Assembly (NCBI RefSeq): GCF_004005845.1 | Contig: NZ_SADE01000001.1 | Span: forward strand, 620,001-684,000 | DNA from: Hwanghaeella grinnelliae | Lineage (GTDB): Bacteria > Pseudomonadota > Alphaproteobacteria > UBA8366 > Aestuariispiraceae | Reading direction: 5' to 3' | DNA: 64,000 nt | Shown here: positions 6,384 through 19,745 of the stretch, in pieces | How positions within the stretch are numbered: the stretch's first letter is position 1 | Layout: each line of letters starts with the position of its first letter | Translations under genes and position numbers: made by a program | Notes under the pieces: model-generated | The model's input: the letters and a program-made list of their open reading frames with translations, nothing else | Told to the model about the DNA's origin: nothing | The model's database searches: none

Positions 6384-6427
6384 GTGCGGGCGCCGCGAAC
6401 GCGATTTAGGGCGCCCGCACCTTTATT
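6384..6427. terminator. Bidirectional intrinsic terminator
   Basis: A GC-rich inverted repeat (GTGCGGGCGCC at 6384-6394 against GGCGCCCGCAC at 6410-6420) is followed by CTTTATTT on the plus strand. It lies exactly between the convergent EncFtn-like gene and the symporter-kinase gene, and its right flank overlaps the kinase stop codon. The stem could stop transcription from either side. Confidence 0.75.
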
Positions 6428-9089
6428 TGACGCGCGCTAGCGTCAGTCGGAAAAAACTCGTTCCGTCGCGGGCGAATTCGATCGTCAGATCCCCGTTCAT
6501 GGCGCGCATGATCGCTCGACTGATCGGCAGGCCCAAGCCGGCGCCTTGGTCCCGGTCGGCCCTGGACCCGCGGGCGAACTTCTCGAAAATCATTGAGGAT
6601 TCAGCGCGCGTAACGCCGCCGCCATTGTCGATGATATCGATCCAGATCTTGTCGTTCTTGACGGTTGAGACGATGCGGATCGTCGGGGTCGTCGCGCTGT
6701 TGTACTTGACGGCGTTGGACAGAAGATTAATCAGCACCTGACGCAGTCGGTCGTCATTGGCGCGGATCAGTGTCCCTTGCGGAACCGGTGCGACCCTGAC
6801 CCCAACACCGTTGTTCCGGGTCATGCCGGAGACCGCATCGATCGCGCCGCCGACTGCCGCGTTCACCTCGATCTTTTCCAAATCCAGGCTGACCGTCCCG
6901 GCTTCCAGACGGCTCATATCCAACAACTCATCCAGTAGCCTGGTCAGGCGCAGGCTTTCGGTCTGAATGATCGTAACGAATCTGTCGCGGTCTTCCTGCG
7001 AGACGTCTTCGTTGCTGACAAGGATGTCCGAGAAAGACCGTATGGACGTCATCGGCGTCCGCAATTCGTGGCTGACCTGACTGAGGAATTCGTCCTTCTG
7101 CGCATCCAGCGCCTTCAGTCTTTCGTTGGCGTTTCGCAGTTGTTGGGCCGCATGTTCCAGTTCCGCCGATTTTTCGGCCAACTGACGGGACGTTTCGATC
7201 AATTCCTGGGTTTCGTCGGCGATGTCGATCAACTCGGTGATGCCGACAGATTCCTGCCCCGCAATTCGCGTCACCATGGCATGAGCGGAAGCGGCCCCGA
7301 TAGAGCCGGCCAATTCCCGTTCCAACCGGGCGATCACCTCGTCGGTGGCGTGCGGCAGTCCTGCATCCGTCCCTTGTCCGGCCGCCATCTCGTCGAACAG
7401 GCGGCGGGCGGGTTCAGTGCCCAGGATGCGTTGAGCAAGGACGAAAAGGTCCTCGGAATCTGCGGTTCCAACTGTGGTGCGGGATGGGCCGCCACCGGAA
7501 GACCGGTAGACGTCGACGAAGAGGGCGCTTTGCAGCCGCTCCAATGCATTCGGGCGCGTCACGCTGGAAACCAACACGAAACTGAGTGCGTTCATCCCGA
7601 CACTCCAAAAGACCGCATGAACCAGCGGATCCATGCCCGCCAGACCGAACAAGGCTTGGGGACGGAGCAGTTCAATTCCGAACGGGCCGGTTTTGATCGT
7701 CGCTTCGGATAGCAGCAAATCGCCACCAAAACTCGGCAGGAAGAAGGTGTAGGCCCATAAGGCAAAACCGATCATCAGGCCGACAAGCGCTCCTTTCCGC
7801 GTCGCGCCGCGCCAGAAGATGCCGCCGATCAAACTGGGCATGAACTGGGCCACGCCGACGAAGGCGATAAGGCCGATGGCAGCGAGCGCGTCGGAACCGC
7901 CGCTGCCCCGGAAATAGAGGAATCCAAGCCCAAGGATCGCGGCGATACTGAACCGGCGGGACACCAGCAACAGATTCCGGACATCGCCGCTGACCGCGTG
8001 ATCTCCCGGCAGCAGCCGCAAGGCGACCGGCATGACGATATGGTTGGAGACCATGGTGGAAACCGCGATGGCCGCGACGATGACCATGGAGGTCGCAGAG
8101 GAAAACCCGCCGAGGAATGCGAACAATGCTAGTTCATGCCGATGTTCCGCCAGCGGGATGGTCAGGACGTAGAGGTCCGGGTTCGCTCCCACGGGCATGA
8201 CCTTCGCACCGACGATCGCGATCGGCATGATGAAGAGGGTCATCCCGAACAGGTATAGCGGAAACAGCCATGACGCCGTCGTCAGATGACTTTCCTTGAT
8301 ATTTTCCACCACGGTAACTTGGAACTGACGCGGCAGGCAGATGACGGCGGTGGCAGACAGAAATGTAATCGCAACCCAACGCGTTCCGAACACGCCGTCC
8401 TGTCCCAGTATGGCTTCCGGCGGCACATCGGCGAAGATGTCGCCGAAACCGTCGGATACGCCATAGACCGCGAAGATGCCAACAGCGATCAGCGCCAACA
8501 ATTTCACGATCGCTTCCAATGCAATGGCCGAAACGACGCCGTGATGCCGCTCGTTGGCGTCCAGGTTGCGGGTTCCGAACAGAATGGTGAACAACGCCAT
8601 GCCGGCGGCGACCCAGAAAGCGGTGGTAATCTCATCCACCTCGCCCGCGATGACCTGATAACTTCGCGTCACGGACTGAAGTTGCAGCGCGATATAGGGG
8701 GTGGTCGCGATCACGGCGATAACGGTCACCAAGACAGCCAGGCTGGGGCTTTTTCCATAACGCGATGAAATCAAATCGGCGATGGAGGTAACACGGTGCG
8801 CGCGTCCGATGCGCACAAGCTTCCTCAGCAGCCACCACCATCCAACGAAAACCAGGGTGGGACCCAGATAGATCGTGATGAACTCCAACCCGTTTCGCGC
8901 CGCCGATCCGACCGCGCCATAGAACGTCCACGACGTGCAATAGACCGAAATCGACAAGGTGTAGACCACGGGTGACTGAAGCCACCGCATCGGGTTGGTT
9001 CGGGTTCGGCGGTCGACAATGAAGGCGACGGCAAAAAGAAGGGCGACATAACCCAGGCAGGCGAAGAGTAGGATGTCGGTGGAAAGCAT
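6423..9089 (-). CDS. Sodium/solute symporter-fused sensor histidine kinase (CbrA-like)
   Basis: This 888-residue membrane protein joins an SSS/SLC5-type transporter domain of about 13 helices (residues 1 to ~500) to a cytoplasmic kinase. A coiled coil leads into a HisKA domain (QVSHELRTPM, phospho-His near residue 670) and an HATPase domain with N box NLLSNAVKYN, G1 DNGGGV and G2 GAGLGLPIS. Related proteins (CbrA, CrbS/MxtR) sense or couple transport of carbon sources such as amino acids or acetate to transcription. I chose ATG 9089 because the codon overlaps the stop of the upstream small membrane gene (TGATG) and is preceded by AGGACGG; an open frame continues to 9188. The response regulator upstream is the likely partner. 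The transported or sensed compound cannot be read from sequence. Confidence 0.9.
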   Translation of the reverse strand: MLSTDILLFACLGYVALLFAVAFIVDRRTRTNPMRWLQSPVVYTLSISVYCTSWTFYGAVGSAARNGLEFITIYLGPTLVFVGWWWLLRKLVRIGRAHRVTSIADLISSRYGKSPSLAVLVTVIAVIATTPYIALQLQSVTRSYQVIAGEVDEITTAFWVAAGMALFTILFGTRNLDANERHHGVVSAIALEAIVKLLALIAVGIFAVYGVSDGFGDIFADVPPEAILGQDGVFGTRWVAITFLSATAVICLPRQFQVTVVENIKESHLTTASWLFPLYLFGMTLFIMPIAIVGAKVMPVGANPDLYVLTIPLAEHRHELALFAFLGGFSSATSMVIVAAIAVSTMVSNHIVMPVALRLLPGDHAVSGDVRNLLLVSRRFSIAAILGLGFLYFRGSGGSDALAAIGLIAFVGVAQFMPSLIGGIFWRGATRKGALVGLMIGFALWAYTFFLPSFGGDLLLSEATIKTGPFGIELLRPQALFGLAGMDPLVHAVFWSVGMNALSFVLVSSVTRPNALERLQSALFVDVYRSSGGGPSRTTVGTADSEDLFVLAQRILGTEPARRLFDEMAAGQGTDAGLPHATDEVIARLERELAGSIGAASAHAMVTRIAGQESVGITELIDIADETQELIETSRQLAEKSAELEHAAQQLRNANERLKALDAQKDEFLSQVSHELRTPMTSIRSFSDILVSNEDVSQEDRDRFVTIIQTESLRLTRLLDELLDMSRLEAGTVSLDLEKIEVNAAVGGAIDAVSGMTRNNGVGVRVAPVPQGTLIRANDDRLRQVLINLLSNAVKYNSATTPTIRIVSTVKNDKIWIDIIDNGGGVTRAESSMIFEKFARGSRADRDQGAGLGLPISRAIMRAMNGDLTIEFARDGTSFFRLTLARVK

Positions 9090-9355
9090 CAGCCGTCCTG
9101 GTCCGACGACGTGTCGGATTGCGAGCGGTAGTCCATCCGACCCAGCGGCTTCGCCAAAATGGCCGCGCCTATGATCAGCGCAAACCACACCGAAAAAATA
9201 TAAAAGATCAGGATGGGTATCCCGAAGACGGTACTATCCAGTAGGAAGATGCTTGCTACTGGTGGCATTAACAGCACCGCGCCGACAATCAGCAGGACCA
9301 GAGACCGGTCCCGTGTTTCTCGCCGTGAAAGCTGAAGGTCGGCCCTATCTCTCAC
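9089..9355 (-). CDS. Small two-helix membrane protein coupled to symporter-kinase
   Basis: An 88-residue protein with a basic N-terminus and two hydrophobic segments (about residues 19-38 and 45-68), then a charged tail. I recognise no catalytic motif. Its stop codon shares a base with the start codon of the symporter-kinase (TGATG), implying translational coupling and near-equal expression. A similar small open reading frame (cbrX) sits in front of cbrA in Pseudomonas, so this may be a subunit or expression regulator of the transporter-kinase. The gene is small but supported by tight spacing on both sides: 15 bases from the response regulator and a one-base overlap downstream. Confidence 0.8.
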   Translation of the reverse strand: MRDRADLQLSRRETRDRSLVLLIVGAVLLMPPVASIFLLDSTVFGIPILIFYIFSVWFALIIGAAILAKPLGRMDYRSQSDTSSDQDG

Positions 9356-9370
9356 AGCATTCCGTTCCCG

Positions 9371-9748
9371 TCAGGCGGATCCCTGTGCGGCAAGCCGTTC
9401 TACGGCGGCAACCAGTTCGGCATTGGCAAAGGGTTTGGTGATGAAAAGGTCCGCGCCGCATTCCAGGGCCGTTTCACGGTCCTCCCGCTGACCTTTCGCG
9501 GTCAGCATCAGCACAGGCAGGGATTCTGCACGTTGGTCGGCGCGAAGACGCCTAAGTATCTCGTAGCCGTCCAGTTCCGGGAGCATGACATCGAGAATGA
9601 GGACATCGGGCACATTCGCCAGAACGGATTCCAGCGCTTGCCGTCCATCCGATTCGACCCCCACTTCGAACCCGGCTCTTTCCAGAAGAAATGTCAGCGA
9701 TTCGACGATGTTGGGTTCGTCCTCCGCCAACAGGACCCGCTTTGTCAT
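9371..9748 (-). CDS. Single-domain response regulator (CheY-like receiver)
   Basis: This 125-residue protein is a receiver domain and nothing else. The acidic pocket (Glu9/Asp10), phosphoacceptor Asp53 in LILDVMLPELDG, Thr83 in LMLTAKG and Lys105 in ITKPF are all in place. It is the first gene of a minus-strand set: receiver, small membrane protein, symporter-kinase. The obvious phosphodonor is that kinase. Without a DNA-binding or enzymatic output it must act through protein contact, for example on another regulator or a phosphorelay. The neighbouring ScfR-type regulator is a candidate, but that is inference. Confidence 0.92.
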   Translation of the reverse strand: MTKRVLLAEDEPNIVESLTFLLERAGFEVGVESDGRQALESVLANVPDVLILDVMLPELDGYEILRRLRADQRAESLPVLMLTAKGQREDRETALECGADLFITKPFANAELVAAVERLAAQGSA

Positions 9749-9870: not shown

Positions 9871-11265
9871 CTAAGCCGCCAAGGGGTCTTCCACGCGATG
9901 AAGGCAGTTCCGGCGCGGGCACAAGCGGCAACTGGGGCCGACTTCCTCTACCGGGGCGTTCGTCTCCGCGGCATAGACCGTGCGTTGGGCATCCGCCTCG
10001 CTGGTGGCGAGCATGTCGGTCACATAATGGCGCGGTTTCCCGAATCCTGTCGGGCCGGTATTTCGGGCACGGGCAACAAATACGAACCGCGCGCCGGACG
10101 GAAATAAGGCGCGCTGGCGGATGACCGTTTCCGGCGATTGCTGTGCGCGATATAGCACCCATAGCGGACAGGCGGCGGCGTAGCGCGGAATAGCAAGGCC
10201 TGGCAGACCGAGCATTTCGATGATCGTGCCGGCTGCGTTGGCGCGGAAATACCCGAAGCGCGGCACATTTTCGGTGCGCGGCAATGCGGTCAACCGGTGG
10301 CATACCGCGTTGATTCCGGTCGAAAACACCTCCGACAGCGCTTCGATGTCGTACCGCAACTCGTCGGAATATTCCTGGAATGCCTTCATCGGCATGAGGA
10401 TGGCGCCGACCGCGTAATCCATAAGGGCCTGTGTTGCCCGGGTCCGGGCGGCGGCGGTTTCTACTTCGCGGTGGCTGCCGATCAAGTCCTTGATCAGGCC
10501 GCTCAAATGCTCGCGGGTCAATTCCAATGCCTTGGCGTGCCGGGACACGGGGTGGGGGCTGGTCAAATGCGGCGCGAGTTTTTCGGCAAACTCCTCAAGC
10601 TCCGCGAAGTGGTTTTCGCGCGCCGTGAACAAGGCTTCCACCTCGTCGATCGGCGTCAGGATTCGGTTCTCCTCCTCCGCCTTGTCCAGGTAGACAGCCA
10701 AGGCTTCCCCGATATCCGACAGGACCCGACTTTCCTCGGAGATAATGTGATGAAACCGTTCTTTCCGTTCTTCGGGGGCGTCCGGGTAGTCGGTCAAGAT
10801 TTCCGCGGCGGACCGGATGGACGCAATCCGGGTCAGCATCCGGTGGACAGCTTCGTTCAGGAATGGATCGTTGGACAGACGTTCAGAGAGCGTTTGGGCG
10901 CGGGCCGACGCTTCGTGTTCCGATCGGGCCAGGGCCGCCATCGACCTGGCCCAGCCGGGGAAGCGCCCGATCAATTCGCTTGTCCGGTGGCTTTCGATAT
11001 TCATGCCCTGCAGTGACGGCAGGTGGGCGATTTCCACCAAGGTCTCGTGCAACCGGTGTTCGGACGCGCCGTCCAAATCCTCGATAGCGAGGTTCAAGCG
11101 TTCCGCGATATTGCGCAGCAGCGTCCCTGCGATGGGGCGTTTGTTCCACTCGATCAGGTTCAGATAGGAGGCGGAAATGCCGATGCGGCGCGCCAATTCT
11201 GCCTGCGTGATCCCGATTTCACGTCGACGCTGCCGAATTCGTGTGCCGACGATGGTATCGACCAT
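9871..11265 (-). CDS. XRE-family regulator with DUF2083 domain (ScfR/RamB type)
   Basis: This 464-residue transcription factor has an N-terminal XRE helix-turn-helix (residues ~7-62, GITQAELARRIGISASYLNLIE) and a long central region. Its C-terminal DUF2083-type domain ends in a cysteine cluster (CRLCPRRNC). Members of this short-chain fatty acyl regulator family respond to acyl-CoA-like signals and control carbon pathways such as the glyoxylate, methylcitrate or acetate routes. The gene is transcribed away from the ABC importer at 11.5-16.7 kb and towards the receiver/symporter-kinase operon. Repeats in both flanking gaps suggest it may control itself and both neighbours. The ligand is unknown. 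Confidence 0.88.
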   Translation of the reverse strand: MVDTIVGTRIRQRRREIGITQAELARRIGISASYLNLIEWNKRPIAGTLLRNIAERLNLAIEDLDGASEHRLHETLVEIAHLPSLQGMNIESHRTSELIGRFPGWARSMAALARSEHEASARAQTLSERLSNDPFLNEAVHRMLTRIASIRSAAEILTDYPDAPEERKERFHHIISEESRVLSDIGEALAVYLDKAEEENRILTPIDEVEALFTARENHFAELEEFAEKLAPHLTSPHPVSRHAKALELTREHLSGLIKDLIGSHREVETAAARTRATQALMDYAVGAILMPMKAFQEYSDELRYDIEALSEVFSTGINAVCHRLTALPRTENVPRFGYFRANAAGTIIEMLGLPGLAIPRYAAACPLWVLYRAQQSPETVIRQRALFPSGARFVFVARARNTGPTGFGKPRHYVTDMLATSEADAQRTVYAAETNAPVEEVGPSCRLCPRRNCLHRVEDPLAA

Positions 11266-11512: not shown

Positions 11513-12853
11513 ATGAGCAAATTTGAAATTAACCGCCGTGGGCTGCTGAAAAGTACGGCAGCCGCTGGCGCAGGGTTGGCTCTGCCGACCATGTTCACCA
11601 GCAGTGCTTGGTCAGCCGGATATTTGAATGAGCCGAAAGGCAGCACCGTCACGTTCGGTTTCAACGTTCCGCAGACCGGCGCCTATGCCGATGAAGGCGC
11701 GGACGAATTACGCGCTTACGAATTGGCCGTTGAACACATCAACGGTGAAGGCGATGGCGGCATGCTGAACACGTTCTCGTCGAAGGCGCTGCAAGGAAAC
11801 GGCGTCAATGGCAAGAAGGTCGTGTTCGTTACCGGTGATACGCAGACCAAATCCGACGCCGCCCGCGCCAGCGCGAAGCGGATGATTGAAAAGGACGGCG
11901 CCATCATGATCACCGGCGGTTCGTCCTCCGGTGTTGCGATCGCTGTCCAGGGCCTGTGCCAGGACGCCGGCGTCATCTTCATGGCCGGTCTGACCCACTC
12001 CAACGACACGACCGGTAAAGACAAGCGCGCCAACGGTTTCCGTCACTTCTTCAACACCGAAATGTCGGGTGCTGCACTCGCGCCGGTGCTGAAGAACAAC
12101 TACGGTTCTGATCGCGTGGCCTATCACCTGACCGCCGATTACACCTGGGGTTGGTCGCAGGAAGGTTCGATCAAGAAGTATACCGAAGCTCTTGGCTGGA
12201 AGACCGCTGCCGCGGTTCGCACGCCGCTTGGCGCCGGTGACTTCTCGCAGTACATCACGCCGGTTCTTAACTCCGGCGCCGACGTGCTGGTCTTGAACCA
12301 TTACGGCCGTGACATGGTCAACTCGTTGACTCAGGCCGTTCAGTTCGGTCTGCGCGACAAGCAGGTCAATGGGAAAGACTTCGCGATCGTCGTTCCGCTC
12401 TATAGCCGCCTGATGGCTCAGGGTGCGGGCGAAAACGTCAAAGGCATCTTCGGGTCCACCAACTGGCACTGGTCGCTGCAGGATGAGGGCTCCAAAGCCT
12501 TCGTGAAGTCCTTCGGTCAGAAATACGGCTTCCCGCCCAGCCAGGCTGCGCACACCTGCTATAGCCAGGCGATCCTGTATGCCGATGCGTGCCAGCGTGC
12601 GGGCACCTTTATGCCGTCCGGCGTGGGTGCGGCCCTGGAAGGCTTCGAATTCGACGGCCTGGGCAACGGTCCGACCGAATATCGTGCGGCCGACCACCAG
12701 TGCTTCAAGGATGTCTTGGTCGTGAAGGGTAAAGAAAACCCGAGCTCCAAGTTCGACGTTCTCGAAGTCGTCGAAGTTACGCCGCGTGCTCAGGTCGAGT
12801 ATCCGGCCGACATGCTGGGTGGTGAATTGGGCCCGTATAACAACGGCGCCTAA
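11513..12853 (+). CDS. HAAT-type ABC transporter substrate-binding protein
   Basis: This 446-residue periplasmic type I binding protein belongs to the branched-chain amino acid/urea/amide (HAAT, LivK/UrtA-like) group. The N-terminus has a twin-arginine-like export signal (NRRGLLKST) and a hydrophobic stretch ending in SAWSA near residue 35. The body contains the family elements NVPQTGAYADEGADELRAYELA and ITGGSSSGVAIAVQGLCQ. It heads a complete importer operon with two permeases and two ATPases. GGGAGATCCTTT precedes the ATG. A hairpin after the gene probably lets it be expressed above the downstream genes. The substrate is not evident; amides, urea-like compounds and amino acids are all possible. 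Confidence 0.88.
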   Translation: MSKFEINRRGLLKSTAAAGAGLALPTMFTSSAWSAGYLNEPKGSTVTFGFNVPQTGAYADEGADELRAYELAVEHINGEGDGGMLNTFSSKALQGNGVNGKKVVFVTGDTQTKSDAARASAKRMIEKDGAIMITGGSSSGVAIAVQGLCQDAGVIFMAGLTHSNDTTGKDKRANGFRHFFNTEMSGAALAPVLKNNYGSDRVAYHLTADYTWGWSQEGSIKKYTEALGWKTAAAVRTPLGAGDFSQYITPVLNSGADVLVLNHYGRDMVNSLTQAVQFGLRDKQVNGKDFAIVVPLYSRLMAQGAGENVKGIFGSTNWHWSLQDEGSKAFVKSFGQKYGFPPSQAAHTCYSQAILYADACQRAGTFMPSGVGAALEGFEFDGLGNGPTEYRAADHQCFKDVLVVKGKENPSSKFDVLEVVEVTPRAQVEYPADMLGGELGPYNNGA

Positions 12854-12928: not shown

Positions 12929-13957
12929 ATGGACGCGATCCTGCTGCAAATTTTGAACGGCCTGGACAAAGGCGGCGCCTACGCCCTCATTGCCCTGGGT
13001 CTTACGATCATCTTCGGCACGCTCGGCGTGGTGAACTTCGCGCATGGCGCCTTGTTCATGCTGGGTGCTTTTTGTGCCGTTTCGGTGAAAGCCGTCCTGA
13101 GTCTCGAAAGGGTCGTGGAAGACCCGAACCAACTCACCGCCTGGGGCACGCCGATGGAAATTCGGACCCCATTCGTGGAAGTCTGGTTCGGCGATTTCGG
13201 GGCTACGATTTTGGACTATTCCGTTCCGGTCTCCATCCTGATCGCCATACCGGTAATGCTTTTGATCGGCATCGCGATGGAACGTGGCCTGGTGCGCTTT
13301 TTCTATAAGCGGGCGCACGCGGATCAGATCCTGGTGACCTTCGGGCTGGCGATCGTATTGCAGGAAATCGTCAAGGCACAGTTCGGGGCCAACCCTATTC
13401 CGCAGCCGGCGCCGGAAGCCGCCAGCGGGATGATTGATTTCGGTATCATGGTGGGGATCGATGCAGGCAACGTTGTCTATCCGGCGTGGCGGCTGATCTA
13501 TTTCGTGTTCTCCGCCGTCGTCATTGGCGCCGTCTTCGCATTCCTACAGTTCACGACCTTCGGCATGGTCGTCAGGGCCGGCATGGCCGACCGCGAGACG
13601 GTCGGGTTGCTCGGTATCGATATTGACCGGCGATTTACCATCGTTTTCGGAATTGCCGCGATCGTCGCCGGACTTGCCGGCGCCATGTATACGCCGATCC
13701 TAAGCCCTGACTATCACATGGGCATGGACTTCCTGGTGCTCAGTTTCGTGGTTGTCGTTGTCGGCGGCATGGGCTCGCTGACCGGCGCGGTCTCCGCAGG
13801 CTTCCTGCTCGGGATTCTGCAAAGCTTCGCGTCCATGAACGAAGTGAAGGACATCCTTCCGGGCATCGACCAGATCATTATCTATCTCATCGCCGTCGTC
13901 ATCCTGTTGGTGCGTCCGCGCGGTTTGATGGGTCGAAAAGGCGTGATGGAGCACTAA
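12929..13957 (+). CDS. HAAT ABC transporter permease, LivH type
   Basis: This 342-residue inner-membrane protein is the first permease of the importer. It shows the LivH-family opening (LNGLDKGGAYALIALGLTIIFGTLGVVNFAHG) and about eight hydrophobic segments. A late cytoplasmic loop (ATIVAG-like AAIVAGLAGAMYTP, then VVVVGGMGSLTGAV) corresponds to the region that contacts the ATPase. It starts at an ATG preceded by GGGGAGG. It is followed after 3 bases by the second permease, with which it should form the heterodimeric channel. Confidence 0.92.
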   Translation: MDAILLQILNGLDKGGAYALIALGLTIIFGTLGVVNFAHGALFMLGAFCAVSVKAVLSLERVVEDPNQLTAWGTPMEIRTPFVEVWFGDFGATILDYSVPVSILIAIPVMLLIGIAMERGLVRFFYKRAHADQILVTFGLAIVLQEIVKAQFGANPIPQPAPEAASGMIDFGIMVGIDAGNVVYPAWRLIYFVFSAVVIGAVFAFLQFTTFGMVVRAGMADRETVGLLGIDIDRRFTIVFGIAAIVAGLAGAMYTPILSPDYHMGMDFLVLSFVVVVVGGMGSLTGAVSAGFLLGILQSFASMNEVKDILPGIDQIIIYLIAVVILLVRPRGLMGRKGVMEH

Positions 13958-13960
13958 GTC

Positions 13961-15109
13961 ATGAAAATGTTCTCAATGGACAAGAAGGACATCCTTCTTT
14001 TTCTCTGCTTCTCCGTCGCCGTGCTTACGGGGCCGATTATTCTGGAGCCGTTCGGCGCCGGATATCCCGACTTGCTGCAAAAGTTCGCGATATTCGGAAT
14101 CTTCGCATTGGGATTCAACATCCTGTTCGGCTTGACGGGTTATCTGTCCTTCGGTCATGCGGCGTTCCTGGGCATGGGATCCTATACCGCGGTCTGGACG
14201 TTTAAACTGCTCAGCATGAACCCGATCCCCGCGATTGTCTTCGCGACCGTCATGGGCGGACTGTTCGCAGCGTTGATCGGTTTCATTTCGCTACGGCGGT
14301 CGGGGATCTACTTCTCGATCCTGACGCTGGCCTTCGCGCAGATGAGCTATAATCTGGCTTATTCGGTGCTGACGCCGATCACGAACGGTGAAACGGGGCT
14401 GCAATTGAACCAAGCCGACCCGCGCGTCCTCGACGTCATGTTCGGGCGCGATTACGGCGCGGTGCTGCCGTCATCCGACTTCTTCGGATTGGATATGACG
14501 GGGTATCCGGGGTTCTACTTCTGCGGCATTGTCCTGATCATCTGCTTCTTCATTGCCATGCGGATATTCCGGTCCCCGTTCGGCATGATGCTGCGCGCGA
14601 TCAAGTCGAACCAGAACCGGATGAACTATACCGGCTTCAATACGCGACCCTACACGCTGGCGGCTTTCGTTATCTCCGGCATGTATGCCGGTCTGGCCGG
14701 CGGCCTCATGGCCGTCACCGACCCGCTTGCCGGGGCAGAGCGCATGCAGTGGACCGCATCCGGTGAAGTGGTTCTGATGACCATCTTGGGCGGGGCTGGG
14801 ACCCTGTTGGGGCCGGTTATCGGGGCAGGTGCCATCAAGTATTTCGAGAATATCTTCTCGGCCTTCAACGAAGGCATCCTGATGGGCATCTATGACTTCC
14901 TGCCGGAAACGTTGCAGCACATCATGGTGAGTGTTTCCGGTCTGTTTGTCGGTGAAGGGTGGCATCTGACGCTGGGGGCGTTGTTCATGCTCATCGTCAT
15001 CTTCCTGCCTGGCGGGCTGATGGAAGGCTTCAACCGGATCAAGACCTTGGTGACGAACCGCACAGGTGGCGGAAGCGACGGGGCGGCTACGCCCGCGGCC
15101 GCGGAATAG
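13961..15109 (+). CDS. HAAT ABC transporter permease, LivM type
   Basis: This 382-residue inner-membrane protein is the second permease. It has the LivM-family motif [20 protein letters not shown] near residues 50-68 and about ten hydrophobic segments. Its EAA-like loop reads [19 protein letters not shown], followed by [17 protein letters not shown]. The C-terminus is a short polar, alanine-rich tail. It lies between the LivH-type gene (3 bp upstream) and the LivG-type ATPase (12 bp downstream), so the unit is plainly one operon. Confidence 0.92.
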
Positions 15110-15121
15110 GGGGAGGGCGTT

Positions 15122-15877
15122 ATGGCTATTCTATCGGTCGAAAACGTAAACAAGCGCTTTGGCGGTCTCAAAGCGTTGGACAACGTCAACCTTCAAATCG
15201 ACGCGGGAACGGTTCACGCCATCATCGGACCGAACGGCGCCGGGAAGTCGACCTTGCTCAACTGCTTCGTCGGCCGACTGGAACCGGACACCGGATCCGT
15301 GATGTTCGACGGCAGTTCTCTGCTGGGTATTCAACCGCATCAGATCAATCAGCTTGGCGTCAGCCGGGTTTTCCAGACGCCGGAAATTTTCGGCAATCTT
15401 TCCCTGCTTGAGAATGTCATGATCCCGGCATTCGCCAAGCGGGATGGGTCATTCACGATGAATGCCTGGATGTCGGTGTCGAGTGAATCCGACTTGCGGG
15501 ACATGGCAATGGATATGCTGGCCGATGTGGGCCTGGAGGCCAAATCGGCGGACATTGCAGGGCAGTTGTCGCGTGGCGACAAACGGCGCCTGGAACTTGC
15601 CATGTGCCTGGTCCAACAACCGAAGCTGCTCCTGTTGGATGAACCGACGGCTGGTATGGCGCGGGCCGATACAAACAATACCATCGATCTGATGAAACGG
15701 ATTGCGGAACGCGGCGTTACCATGGTGGTTATCGAGCACGACATGCATGTCGTGTTCTCGCTGGCCGACAAAATCAGCGTCCTGGCGCAGGGCACCGTCA
15801 TCGTTGAAGACTTGCCGGAAAACATCAAAGGCGATCCCAGGGTGCAGGAAGCATATCTGGGCGGCGCTCATCTTTAA
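15122..15877 (+). CDS. HAAT ABC transporter ATPase, LivG type
   Basis: A 251-residue nucleotide-binding subunit. It has a Walker A motif (GPNGAGKST, residues ~37-45), a Q-loop in SRVFQTPEIFGNLS, an ABC signature in the divergent form QLSRGDKRRLELAM, and a Walker B motif LLLLDEPTAGM followed by the H-loop IEHDMHVV. The LSRGDKRRLELA signature is the kind seen in LivG/UrtD proteins rather than a sign of inactivity. GGGGGAGGGCG precedes the start. It pairs with the LivF-type ATPase 26 bases downstream. Confidence 0.92.
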   Translation: MAILSVENVNKRFGGLKALDNVNLQIDAGTVHAIIGPNGAGKSTLLNCFVGRLEPDTGSVMFDGSSLLGIQPHQINQLGVSRVFQTPEIFGNLSLLENVMIPAFAKRDGSFTMNAWMSVSSESDLRDMAMDMLADVGLEAKSADIAGQLSRGDKRRLELAMCLVQQPKLLLLDEPTAGMARADTNNTIDLMKRIAERGVTMVVIEHDMHVVFSLADKISVLAQGTVIVEDLPENIKGDPRVQEAYLGGAHL

Positions 15878-15903
15878 GCGCGCTTAGATAGGTGGAGACG
15901 AAA

Positions 15904-16704
15904 ATGGAAACAGAATCGAAACCCCGCAGCCTCATCAATGAAGAGGCGTATACGGGACGCGCGCCCAGCAAGAAGCCGGTTTATTCTCAAGGTGGGCAGG
16001 CGGCCTATTTTTCCTGCTGGGACATTCACGCCTATTATGGTGAGAGCTATATTGTCCAAGGGGTCAGCTTCGATATCCGCGAAGGTGAAATTGTGGCGCT
16101 TTTGGGCCGGAACGGGGCGGGGAAGACTTCTACGCTTCGGGCCATTGCCCGGGTCGACGACCCTGCCTTGAAGCATGGTGAAATCTGGCTGGACCATAAA
16201 CCACTGCATGAAATGCGCGCGCATCAAGCGGCGCAGATCGGCATCGGCCTGGTGCCGGAAGATCGCCGAATCATTCAGGGGCTTACCGTCGAGGAAAACC
16301 TGAAGCTGGCGCAGATCGCACCGCCGATCGGTTGGTCGATCGAACGGATCTACGAGCTGTTCCCGCGTTTGGGCGAACGACGCATGCAGGAGGGCACGAC
16401 CCTGTCTGGTGGGGAGCAGCAGATGCTCGCCATCGGCCGCACCTTGGCCCGTGACGTCAAACTGCTTCTGCTGGATGAACCCTATGAAGGGTTGGCCCCT
16501 GTCATTGTCCAGGAAATCGAACGGACTTTGGAGCAGATCAAGAATCTCGGCATGACCACAATCATTGTGGAACAGAATGCGATCGCGGCGCTGCATCTCG
16601 CAGACCGAGCCATCATTCTGGACATGGGGCAGGTCGTGTTCGACGGTAAGGCGCAGGAGGTCCTGGATAACGCCGACCTTCGGCAGCAATATTTGGCGAT
16701 CTGA
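15904..16704 (+). CDS. HAAT ABC transporter ATPase, LivF type
   Basis: This 266-residue nucleotide-binding subunit has Walker A GRNGAGKTS, Q-loop region VPEDRRIIQGLTVEENL, ABC signature TLSGGEQQMLAIGR and Walker B LLLLDEPYEGLAP with H-loop IVEQN. It carries about 35 more N-terminal residues than a minimal LivF before the first strand (YFSCWDIHAYYGES); these are polar and basic and have no recognised function. I chose ATG 15904, with GGTGGAG six bases upstream; a GTG at 15892 in the same frame lies inside that ribosome-binding site. It is the last transporter gene of the operon. Confidence 0.9.
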   Translation: METESKPRSLINEEAYTGRAPSKKPVYSQGGQAAYFSCWDIHAYYGESYIVQGVSFDIREGEIVALLGRNGAGKTSTLRAIARVDDPALKHGEIWLDHKPLHEMRAHQAAQIGIGLVPEDRRIIQGLTVEENLKLAQIAPPIGWSIERIYELFPRLGERRMQEGTTLSGGEQQMLAIGRTLARDVKLLLLDEPYEGLAPVIVQEIERTLEQIKNLGMTTIIVEQNAIAALHLADRAIILDMGQVVFDGKAQEVLDNADLRQQYLAI

Positions 16705-16723
16705 CCTGGTCATGATCTAGCCA

Positions 16724-16736
16724 GGCACGGAGTGCC
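16724..16736 (+). promoter_or_regulatory. Ribosome-binding site in a hairpin loop
   Basis: GGCAC (16724-16728) and GTGCC (16732-16736) form a 5-bp stem whose loop exposes most of the GGAG Shine-Dalgarno sequence nine bases before the ATG at 16742. A weaker CCTGG/CCAGG pair surrounds it. This may tune translation of the HisKA-like/STAS-like gene. Confidence 0.35.
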
Positions 16737-16741
16737 CGCGG

Positions 16742-17374
16742 ATGAATGATAAACAGCCGCCGCGCCGCGAAACAATCGCGCTCAACACGAAGCTTGAAGA
16801 AGACTTCGTTGCGCCGTTGACCGCGATGCGCGGCGCGCTGGAGATCCTTCGGGATTATCCGGAACTGGCAGAGGAAGAGAGGGTCCGTTTCGCTGAAAAA
16901 GCCTTGCGCGGATGCGCCCGGCTCGAGGCGAGCGTTCGCCATCTGGGCGATGTGCTTTACGCTGACAAGGACGCGGCAACCAGGGCCAAGCCGACACCGT
17001 CCGAACATGCCAAGCGCGTGAAGTTGAATTACGACGACAGATTGATCGATCTGGACCTGAGCGGCATTCAATTTTCCAGCCCTGAGATGGTCAACGAGTT
17101 CTTCGATACGGTCGACCAGATCATCGAGGATACGGGGACCGATTGGTTCTTCGTCGTGAACTACGCCTGTCGCATCTGGCCGGAAGCCTGGATCGCTTTC
17201 GCCCATCGCGCGAAGAAGATCAATGTCTCATTCTCGCTGGGAACCGTCCGCTATGTCGACGTGTCCGACAACGATCCTTGGGCGCGGGCTGCGGCCGACG
17301 ATCCAACGATCCATTCGTCGCGCGACGACGCCTTGGCCGAAATCTCGGCGATGCGTTCGGGTCGATCCCGCTAG
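16742..17374 (+). CDS. Histidine-less HisKA-like plus STAS-like domain protein
   Basis: A 210-residue soluble protein that I cannot assign to a named family. Residues ~14-72 read like the dimerisation/phosphotransfer helices of a histidine kinase (VAPLTAMRGALEILRDYPEL, then a second helix EEERVRFAEKALRGCARLEA). The usual SHELRTPL box is EEDFVAPL, so the phosphoacceptor histidine is replaced by Glu20. There is no ATPase domain. Residues ~95-178 (DLDLSGIQFSSPEMVNEFFD onward, with WPEAWIAFAHRAKKINVSFS) look like a STAS or SpoIIAA-like fold. It follows the importer operon by 37 bp on the same strand, and its ribosome-binding site lies in a small hairpin loop. It could be an anti-sigma-antagonist-like or signalling adaptor for the importer; that is inference. 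Confidence 0.6.
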   Translation: MNDKQPPRRETIALNTKLEEDFVAPLTAMRGALEILRDYPELAEEERVRFAEKALRGCARLEASVRHLGDVLYADKDAATRAKPTPSEHAKRVKLNYDDRLIDLDLSGIQFSSPEMVNEFFDTVDQIIEDTGTDWFFVVNYACRIWPEAWIAFAHRAKKINVSFSLGTVRYVDVSDNDPWARAAADDPTIHSSRDDALAEISAMRSGRSR

Positions 17375-17501: not shown

Positions 17502-19745
17502 ATGCCGCATTCAACATATATGCCCGAACGGATGGGAAGCGCTACCGTAACCCCCGCCGGGCGGTTCGAAGCGGGATCGTTCCAGGAATTCACGGTCACC
17601 TATACGGCAGGCTATTTCGGGATTGACGATACTGGGTCGATCAAGGTCGTCCACCGGTTCGCATCCGATATGGGGCGTCCGCAATTCGATGACCCTGCCG
17701 CCCCCAATTACACGACGGTGGAAGCGACGAACGGGGCGATCCTGCATGTCGAATACGACATGAAGCGGAACATCCGGCCCTGGGACAAGACGCTCTATAT
17801 CAAAGTGGTGCGGGGGTTTCTGCGCGAAGGCGACCAAATCATCATCCGCTTCGGCGACCGCCGCCAGGGCAGTCCCGGTATCCGGCTTCAGACCTTCTGC
17901 GAAGAAACCTTCGAATTCCGGGTGCTGGTAGATGCCATCGCGACCTACAATTATGTGGAATTGCCCGAACAGCCGATCATTGAGATCGTTCCGGGCCCGC
18001 CGTCGCGCTATAAGGCGATCCTGCCGACATTGCGGCGTACGAACGACCCCTTCCGGCTGTGCCTGAAGGGCGAAGACCGTTGGGGCAATCCATCCGATCT
18101 GTGCGAAGGGAACTTCCGCCTGTGCGCCAATATGCCGGTCGACGGTTTGCCGGCGGAGGTGACGTTCGAGTTGGGTAAGTTCGGCCACATCCTCGAAGGG
18201 CTGCGGGTTTCGGAAAGCGGCGATTTGACGGTGGAGCTGCTGGATACGGAGGGGGCTGTCCACGCCACCAGCAATCCCTGCCGGTTCACCGGCGACGCGG
18301 GTTTGTTGCCCTATTGGGGGGACCTTCACGGCCAGTCGGAAGAGACCATCGGTACGAATTCGGCGCGCGACTTCTATGAATTCGCCCGCGACAAGGCTTT
18401 CCTGGATATCTGCGTCCATCAAGGCAATGATTTCCAGATCACGGAACCCTTTTGGCAATGGCTGAACGAGTTGTCCAAGGAGTTTACCGAGGATGATCGG
18501 TTCATCGTTTTCCCAGGCTGGGAATGGTCTGGGAATACGGGGCTGGGCGGCGACCGCAACGTCCTGCATATGCAGGAAGGCCGGCAGATTCACCGGTCGT
18601 CCCATGCGCTTGTTGATGACCTGTCGGATGTGGAGACGGACGCTACTTCCGCCGCCGACCTGTTCGATGCATTGAAGGGGGAAGATTGCACCGTCTTCGC
18701 CCATATCGGCGGACGATACGCGGATATCAAAATTGCCCATGACGAGCGGTTCGAACGGTCGGTGGAGGTCCATTCCGCCTGGGGTACTTTCGAATGGCTG
18801 ATGGACGATGCGCTGGAGCAAGGCTATCGCGTTGGGATCATGTCCAACTCAGACGGCCATAAGGGGCGACCGGGTGCGTCCCATCCGGGGGCGACGAAAT
18901 TCGGCGCCTATGGCGGTTTGACCTGTGTTCTGGCGCCCAGCTTCACGCGGGCCGGGATCATGGATGGCCTGAAACGACGGCACCACTACGGCACCACCGG
19001 AAGCCGGGTAATTCTGGATACGCGGGTCGATTTCGAATCCGAAGCGACCCTTTATGAAGACAATCCGGATTTGGGCGATACGCCGCAGCATTCGGTAACC
19101 AGCGCCATGATGGGCGACATACTGCGATCATCGGACCGGGAGGTTACTTTCCGCATCGATGTGCATGGCGCGTCACCGATCGAGCGGATCGACATTCGAA
19201 ACGGTTTGGAAACGGTAGAGATTTTCCGGCCCTATGCCGAGGCTGACCTGGGGCGGCGCATCCGGGTCCTTTGGGAAGGGTCCGAATACCGGGGGCGTGG
19301 GCGGGAGACGATCTGGGACGGCTTCGCGGAGCTGACTGGGAATACTTTCGATGCCCTCTCGCCGATCAACCGTTACAATCTCGACAAGCGTTTCGACCAA
19401 ACCGGCCCGGGTCGGTTGGAATGGACGGCGCTCACGACCGGCGGCTTCGGCGGTTTCGATGCGGTATTGACCGATCCCACATCCGGTATGCTCAAGATCG
19501 ATACGGACCTCGTGAAGCAGGAAATCGCTGTCGCGGATATCGGGCGGGACGAAATGATTTTCGCCAATGGCGGGATCGACCGCCGTATCCGTATCTTCCG
19601 GATGCCTGACGAAAACCCGCATTGTTCAGCCGTGATCGAACGCCGTATCGAGCTGAAAGACGACCGGGACAACGCACTCTATGTACGCGTCACGCACGAA
19701 GACGGACATTTCACGTGGTCGAGCCCGGTCTACATTTTCCGGTAA
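17502..19745 (+). CDS. DUF3604 family protein (PHP-like metal-dependent fold)
   Basis: A 747-residue protein without a signal peptide. The first ~280 residues are beta-rich. The central part has the DUF3604 pattern, starting with YWGDLHGQSEETIGTNSARD (about residues 271-290). It continues with DICVHQGNDF, FPGWEWSGNTGLGGDRNVLH, VFAHIGG and IMSNSDGHKGRPGASHPG. These spaced Asp/His residues resemble the metal ligands of PHP-type phosphoesterases. The C-terminal ~180 residues form another beta domain. A strong GGGGAGG precedes the ATG. It follows the importer cluster after 127 bp and could act on the imported compound, but no substrate is known for this family as far as I can tell. Confidence 0.75.
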   Translation: MPHSTYMPERMGSATVTPAGRFEAGSFQEFTVTYTAGYFGIDDTGSIKVVHRFASDMGRPQFDDPAAPNYTTVEATNGAILHVEYDMKRNIRPWDKTLYIKVVRGFLREGDQIIIRFGDRRQGSPGIRLQTFCEETFEFRVLVDAIATYNYVELPEQPIIEIVPGPPSRYKAILPTLRRTNDPFRLCLKGEDRWGNPSDLCEGNFRLCANMPVDGLPAEVTFELGKFGHILEGLRVSESGDLTVELLDTEGAVHATSNPCRFTGDAGLLPYWGDLHGQSEETIGTNSARDFYEFARDKAFLDICVHQGNDFQITEPFWQWLNELSKEFTEDDRFIVFPGWEWSGNTGLGGDRNVLHMQEGRQIHRSSHALVDDLSDVETDATSAADLFDALKGEDCTVFAHIGGRYADIKIAHDERFERSVEVHSAWGTFEWLMDDALEQGYRVGIMSNSDGHKGRPGASHPGATKFGAYGGLTCVLAPSFTRAGIMDGLKRRHHYGTTGSRVILDTRVDFESEATLYEDNPDLGDTPQHSVTSAMMGDILRSSDREVTFRIDVHGASPIERIDIRNGLETVEIFRPYAEADLGRRIRVLWEGSEYRGRGRETIWDGFAELTGNTFDALSPINRYNLDKRFDQTGPGRLEWTALTTGGFGGFDAVLTDPTSGMLKIDTDLVKQEIAVADIGRDEMIFANGGIDRRIRIFRMPDENPHCSAVIERRIELKDDRDNALYVRVTHEDGHFTWSSPVYIFR

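Follow-up and report, generated by a model that had tools for sequence, protein, structure and literature searches.

Organization of the locus

The window (the whole stretch of DNA that was analysed, 64,000 nucleotides of the Hwanghaeella grinnelliae genome) contains at 16742-17374 (+) a gene encoding a protein of 210 amino acids, in which a HisKA/DHp-like half that lacks the phosphoacceptor His (pseudo-DHp) is joined to a STAS-like half. The open reading frame is intact, with an ATG at 16742 and a stop codon at 17372-17374. Homologues with 42-52% identity are present in ~10 further Alphaproteobacteria-like genomes, which excludes a chance open reading frame; reverse-strand open reading frames that overlap the gene (16613-17206, -) were without support and were set aside. 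No family in Pfam or NCBIfam spans the whole protein, in agreement with an earlier note on this DNA that placed the architecture in no named family, and no description of a DHp domain combined with a STAS domain was found in the literature searched, which was open-access only and is weak evidence of absence. The pseudo-DHp/STAS gene is real, rare, and conserved, and its product is a new architecture made from known domains that belongs to a family without a name.

The gene lies at the end of an operon encoding a HAAT-type ABC importer. The operon includes genes for a livK-like HAAT substrate-binding protein with a Tat signal (11513-12853, +; domain and profile search), a livH-like permease (12929-13957, +; profile search), a livM-like permease (13961-15109, +; identified from its open reading frame and orthologues), a livG-like ATPase (15122-15877, +; profile search), and a livF-like ATPase (15892-16704, +; profile search). 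The livF-like gene is immediately upstream of the pseudo-DHp/STAS gene, and this adjacency makes its product the proposed partner of the STAS-like half. Only 37 nt separate the livF stop codon from the start of the gene, so its position behind a HAAT importer operon, as first noted from the sequence, is confirmed.

Divergent from livKHMGF is a cassette encoding an SLC5-type sensor histidine kinase with an intact SHELRTP box and an ATPase domain (6423-9188, -; Pfam and profile search), a single-domain response regulator that is the proposed partner of the pseudo-DHp half (9371-9748, -; Pfam Response_reg, 1.3e-30), and an XRE/ScfR-family regulator with a DHp-like insert (9871-11265, -; Pfam ScfRs, 2.2e-23, and HisKA, 0.0015). 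Pfam names only the HisKA and ATPase domains of the kinase; its N-terminal part is presumably SLC5-like, as its sequence resembles that of symporters. Of 30 chosen genomes, 27 have a LivK orthologue, and the cassette of kinase, response regulator, ScfR regulator, and importer is present in most of the neighbourhoods read out, mostly without the pseudo-DHp/STAS gene. Since the gene is rare while the cassette is common without it, the gene is an accessory to the cassette. Known examples of SLC5/STAC kinases, CrbS and CbrA among them, act in carbon-source control (PMC9100948, PMC5715377). ScfR-family regulators are associated with short-chain acyl-CoA metabolism, and one Paracoccus ScfR protein clusters with a two-component system (PMC10370305).

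The DHp-like insert of the ScfR regulator in the window spans residues 127-194 (10684-10887, -), was identified by HisKA similarity and alignment, and retains His141. Such inserts, found in many ScfR proteins beside kinase/HAAT loci, lengthen the protein by ~60 residues that resemble HisKA. Of 35 distinct insert sequences, from many Alphaproteobacteria, 31 retain the His, allowing for a one-column offset of the ScfR rows in the tree alignment, and Thr, Ser, or Asn is found four residues after it. Canonical RamB-like members of the ScfR family are without the insert. Insert-bearing ScfR proteins could be transcription factors that receive phosphate or dock a response regulator.

Just downstream of the pseudo-DHp/STAS gene, 17502-19745 (+) encodes a 747-amino acid protein with weak similarity to CehA/McbA metallohydrolases and to DUF3604. 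In a different genome (G002), a kinase-like open reading frame and a receiver-containing open reading frame lie directly 3' of a HAAT livF gene (L122:13079-16244, +).

The pseudo-DHp half

The HisKA/DHp-like helical hairpin comprises residues 14-79 (16781-16978, +). Pfam HisKA (PF00512) matches residues 25-66 of the window protein with E = 8.2e-4, which is under the curated cut-off, and the same profile is matched by all ten homologues in alignment A2, the best at 8.4e-7. An AF2 model built from eight sequences (mean pLDDT 80.7) predicts that helices 14-38 and 44-79 form a long hairpin that is followed by a linker and then an alpha/beta domain. The pLDDT is ~93-95 for residues 31-50, and the linker at ~residues 78-84 is of low confidence. 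Structural comparison of the modelled hairpin with the HK853 DHp domain gave a Z of 8.8 over 72 residues with an rmsd of 3.2; middling Z values are common, above all for helical hairpins, which can match by shape alone, and the assignment is therefore based on the independent HisKA profile match. Sequence matches in the PDB to C3HR3 helical proteins were discarded, as they involved a single short stretch of designed-looking repeat proteins.

Aligning E-E-D-F-V-A-P-L-T with S-H-E-L-R-T-P-L-T, with the PLT box as the anchor, places Glu20 (codon GAA, 16799-16801, +) at the phosphoacceptor His position. Among the 10 intact homologues this position is Glu in eight, Asp in two, and His in none. The preceding residue, Glu19, is invariant in the same set, as is the Pro at H+5. 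Asp21 provides the acid at H+1 in the window protein, a position that is acidic in 8/10, and H+4, which is Thr or Asn in HisKA domains, is Ala or Ser in 9/10. No ATPase (HATPase_c) domain is present: HisKA is the sole Pfam match, and the remainder of the protein has a STAS fold. The HisKA-like N-terminal half, the substitution of Glu for His, and the missing ATPase had all been proposed in the earlier note, and all three are upheld.

Going by known HisKA chemistry, a pseudo-DHp with Glu or Asp for His and without the H+4 Thr is expected to carry out neither phosphotransfer nor the usual phosphatase reaction. The acid retained at the His position might act as a mimic of the charged phospho-His.

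In a 68-residue tree with weak resolution, the pseudo-DHp sequences form a clade with a support of 0.96 that is separate from the clade of ScfR inserts (0.94). The pseudo-DHp profile is closer to ordinary kinases and to small free-standing DHp proteins than to the ScfR inserts, a relationship that is weakly resolved. The separate clades in this tree give no support to an origin of the pseudo-DHp in either the SLC5 kinase or the ScfR insert. Free-standing proteins of ~77-87 amino acids that consist only of HisKA are encoded at L002:1489-1725 (-), L020:1477-1710 (-), and L027:1507-1770 (-). In the first of these, which is from the same genome as the window, Ile replaces the His that L020 and L027 keep.

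The STAS-like half and its relatives

Residues 90-208 (17009-17365, +) are assigned to a STAS/SpoIIAA-fold domain from the AF2 model, its structural matches, and homologous domains. The top ten structural matches of this C-terminal half are all STAS, SpoIIAA, or RsbS proteins, with Z values of 9.0-9.9 over 96-110 residues (best 9.9 over 106 residues), and the consistency of this list is the basis for the assignment. No STAS profile match was found in Pfam or NCBIfam, and nine C-terminal halves searched against Pfam at E<=10 gave none. The predicted STAS/SpoIIAA fold is therefore visible by structure only; the STAS-like domain described from the sequence alone is borne out in this form.

The motif WPEAW (residues 146-150; 17177-17191, +) is invariant in 9/9 sequences and contains no Ser or Thr. 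From the alignment ranges, it may correspond to the start of the helix that bears the phospho-Ser/Thr in STAS proteins. Conservation is 86% in the STAS helix with this motif (residues 143-160) and 65% in the STAS core overall; the mean is 85% in the first DHp helix (residues 14-40) and 64% in the second. The protein is most conserved in the first DHp helix and in the WPEAW-bearing STAS helix, which is the pattern expected of two binding surfaces.

The STAS-like half is also carried by 23 of 149 genomes in another family of the class. In 22 of these it is found in proteins of mostly ~270-400 amino acids with two tandem copies, such as those encoded at L149:8942-9820 (+), L150:8500-9429 (-), and L151:8428-9321 (+), which belong to no Pfam family; the 23rd apparently is the full-length homologue of G423 again (identical locus, L172). 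For 16 of the 22 tandem genes, the stretch shown includes the livF gene of another HAAT importer; these associations are not independent events, as gene order is to some extent inherited in common within that family. For 11 of the 16, livF is within 150 nt. In the loci read, the product of this livF is 36-39% identical to a window ATPase, and in the pairs read out the two genes are convergent. The STAS-like domain thus accompanies different HAAT importers in two distinct arrangements, and the importer is therefore its most likely partner. A plasmid search with a tandem STAS protein as the query found nothing.

Additionally, the profile of the STAS half matches a C-terminal extension of FadX-like CoA-transferases (alignments A4-A5; probability 97.6%, E = 4.5e-12). 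CoA-transferases with this STAS-like extension of ~120 amino acids, which is covered by no Pfam family, are encoded at L043:1492-3366 (-), L078:1-1860 (+), and L079:1390-3255 (-).

Distribution of the gene

Among 385 genomes sampled from the class, four have the pseudo-DHp/STAS gene, and the copy in one of the four (G122) is broken. The gene is at the end of the importer operon in 8 of 11 loci (the window, L010/L006, L008, L009, L011, L012, L014, and G076), and the spacing from livF is 17-123 nt in these eight. An association with HAAT importers, which the earlier note raised as possibly constant, holds for these loci and gives way in two others, as G423 (L013) and G122 have the gene divergent beside a response regulator gene whose product is 65-70% identical to the window response regulator. 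The G122 copy has a frameshift, and Ala stands in place of the His. No response regulator is found at its normal site between the kinase and ScfR in G122, which suggests that the response regulator and the pseudo-DHp/STAS gene moved or stayed together. The G423 assembly is fragmented and may be mixed.

In G236 the gene is alone, away from both the importer and the response regulator, and in G424 it is kept with the kinase and response regulator while the ScfR gene is absent from the locus. In a genome of the same genus as the window (G004), the cassette is complete but the pseudo-DHp/STAS gene is missing from it. That genome also has an open reading frame of 75 amino acids that resembles the C-terminal half and lies away from the importer (L004:1450-1677, +); it is possibly a remnant.

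Proposed function and alternative explanations

We tentatively favour the reading that the pseudo-DHp/STAS protein is a non-catalytic adaptor that links the two-component system to the HAAT-type ABC importer, a proposal that we regard as quite possible but short of probable and in which both contacts are inferred. The pseudo-DHp would form the usual four-helix dimer, presumably presenting a response-regulator docking face, and with Glu or Asp at the His position it would neither take nor donate phosphate. It would bind the single-domain response regulator encoded with the SLC5-type kinase, and probably only one phosphorylation state of it, in the way that the DHp domain of DivL, with Tyr for His, binds DivK~P and has no kinase or phosphatase activity (PMC4211667). 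The STAS-like domain would contact the importer, with the LivF ATPase as the most likely site, by analogy with the STAS protein MlaB, which binds the ABC ATPase MlaF and stabilises it (PMC7367683). The state of the response regulator would thereby tune import or importer assembly, in a direction that we leave as conjecture, and the pseudo-DHp may also compete with the DHp-bearing ScfR transcription factor for the response regulator.

The argument for this adaptor combines both folds, the acid at the His position in 10/10 intact homologues, the two conserved helices, the adjacency to livF and to the response regulator gene, the livF neighbours of the tandem STAS-like relatives, and the DivL and MlaB precedents. 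Against it, operon position can reflect co-regulation alone, the gene is rare and the cassette common without it, the G236 copy is alone, and the STAS half has no Pfam STAS match. Of the copies adjacent to a response regulator gene, that of G122 is frameshifted and that of G423 comes from an assembly that may be mixed. The anatomy and genomic association behind the adaptor first suggested in the earlier note are thus well supported, and its binding partner is one that we infer. The suggested pairing with a kinase can be restated more narrowly as pairing with a response regulator, given the adjacency in two genomes, and a partner switch in the RsbW sense finds no counterpart, as no anti-sigma kinase or phosphatase gene was seen in the neighbourhood examined.

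A broader form of the proposal would have the STAS-like family dock HAAT importer ATPases and the fused pseudo-DHp read response regulator phosphorylation, such that a two-component system gates an ABC importer at the protein level; we consider this rather unlikely as a whole. If it were true, protein-level ABC control would be found at a locus whose transcription factor (ScfR) also has a DHp domain. Little is understood of how ABC importers are controlled directly at the protein level, and in 2020 the authors of the MlaFB study could find no second STAS-ABC pair in the PDB (PMC7367683). Here a STAS-like family is found beside two different HAAT importers and is fused once to a pseudo-kinase docking domain, and the pseudo-DHp is a further example of a DHp domain put to use outside kinases. 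One small soluble protein would make the question of a two-component-to-transporter link directly testable.

One alternative is an MlaB-like importer subunit with no two-component link, whose hairpin would serve for dimerisation alone and whose STAS half would regulate the importer ATPase or stabilise it. The position of the gene after livF in the operon, and the fact that the DHp-free STAS-like relatives likewise adjoin livF, are accounted for by such a subunit. It leaves aside the two copies that adjoin a response regulator gene, and the first DHp helix and the former phosphosite surface are conserved beyond what a dimer interface needs; we regard this explanation as unlikely.

Less likely again is a decoy or anti-regulator, in which the pseudo-DHp would titrate the response regulator away, or act as a competitor of the ScfR insert or the kinase, and so tune transcription, with adjacency to the importer reflecting co-regulation only. 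The response regulator adjacency in two genomes is in line with this, as is the DHp-like insert with its His in the ScfR regulator of the same locus, but the STAS half and the recurrent livF association of the DHp-free relatives are left unexplained, and G424 has the gene, the kinase, and the response regulator with no ScfR gene at the locus.

It is improbable that the protein is a metabolic sensor, whose STAS half would recognise an acyl-CoA or a carboxylate-metabolism enzyme and report to the two-component system. Homology of the STAS half to the FadX-like extension and the binding of CoA-thioesters by the ScfR-family regulator RamB of Paracoccus (PMC10370305) would suit a sensor of this kind, but the locus showed no CoA-transferase gene. 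A decaying accessory gene with little current function would fit the patchy occurrence, the frameshift in G122, and the C-half-only open reading frame in the same-genus genome, but is very improbable given that 42-52% identity and invariant motifs in ~10 genomes imply selection.

Comparison with known systems

The pseudo-DHp/STAS protein can be set against several other proteins and domains. HisKA/DHp domains (PF00512, including HK853) share with the pseudo-DHp the helical hairpin, the PLTxxR box, and Pfam similarity; the pseudo-DHp differs in having Glu or Asp for His, in the loss of the H+4 Thr, and in the absence of an ATPase domain. DivL of Caulobacter is similar in that it is an alphaproteobacterial protein with a His-less DHp and a single-domain response regulator as its partner (PMC4211667), a partnership that is proposed here for the pseudo-DHp. 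DivL, however, has Tyr at the His position together with PAS domains and an ATPase domain, whereas the pseudo-DHp/STAS protein has Glu or Asp, no ATPase, and a STAS half.

SpoIIAA/RsbS anti-anti-sigma proteins share the fold of the C-terminal half, which differs in having WPEAW, without Ser or Thr, near the presumed position of the usual phosphosite and in having no anti-sigma kinase gene seen nearby. The FadX-like CoA-transferase extensions (L043, L078, and L079) are homologous domains, but they are fused to an enzyme and have only ~17% identity to the STAS half. The tandem STAS-like proteins (L149, L150, and L151) likewise contain the homologous domain and are encoded beside a HAAT ATPase gene, but have two STAS copies, no DHp half, and a different HAAT importer as the neighbour. 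MlaB resembles the pseudo-DHp/STAS protein in its STAS fold and in the position of its gene beside that of an ABC transporter ATPase (PMC7367683, PMC5016091). In contrast, Mla is a phospholipid system and MlaB is a single STAS domain without a DHp half, and the C-terminal half described here showed no sequence-level relation to STAS profiles.
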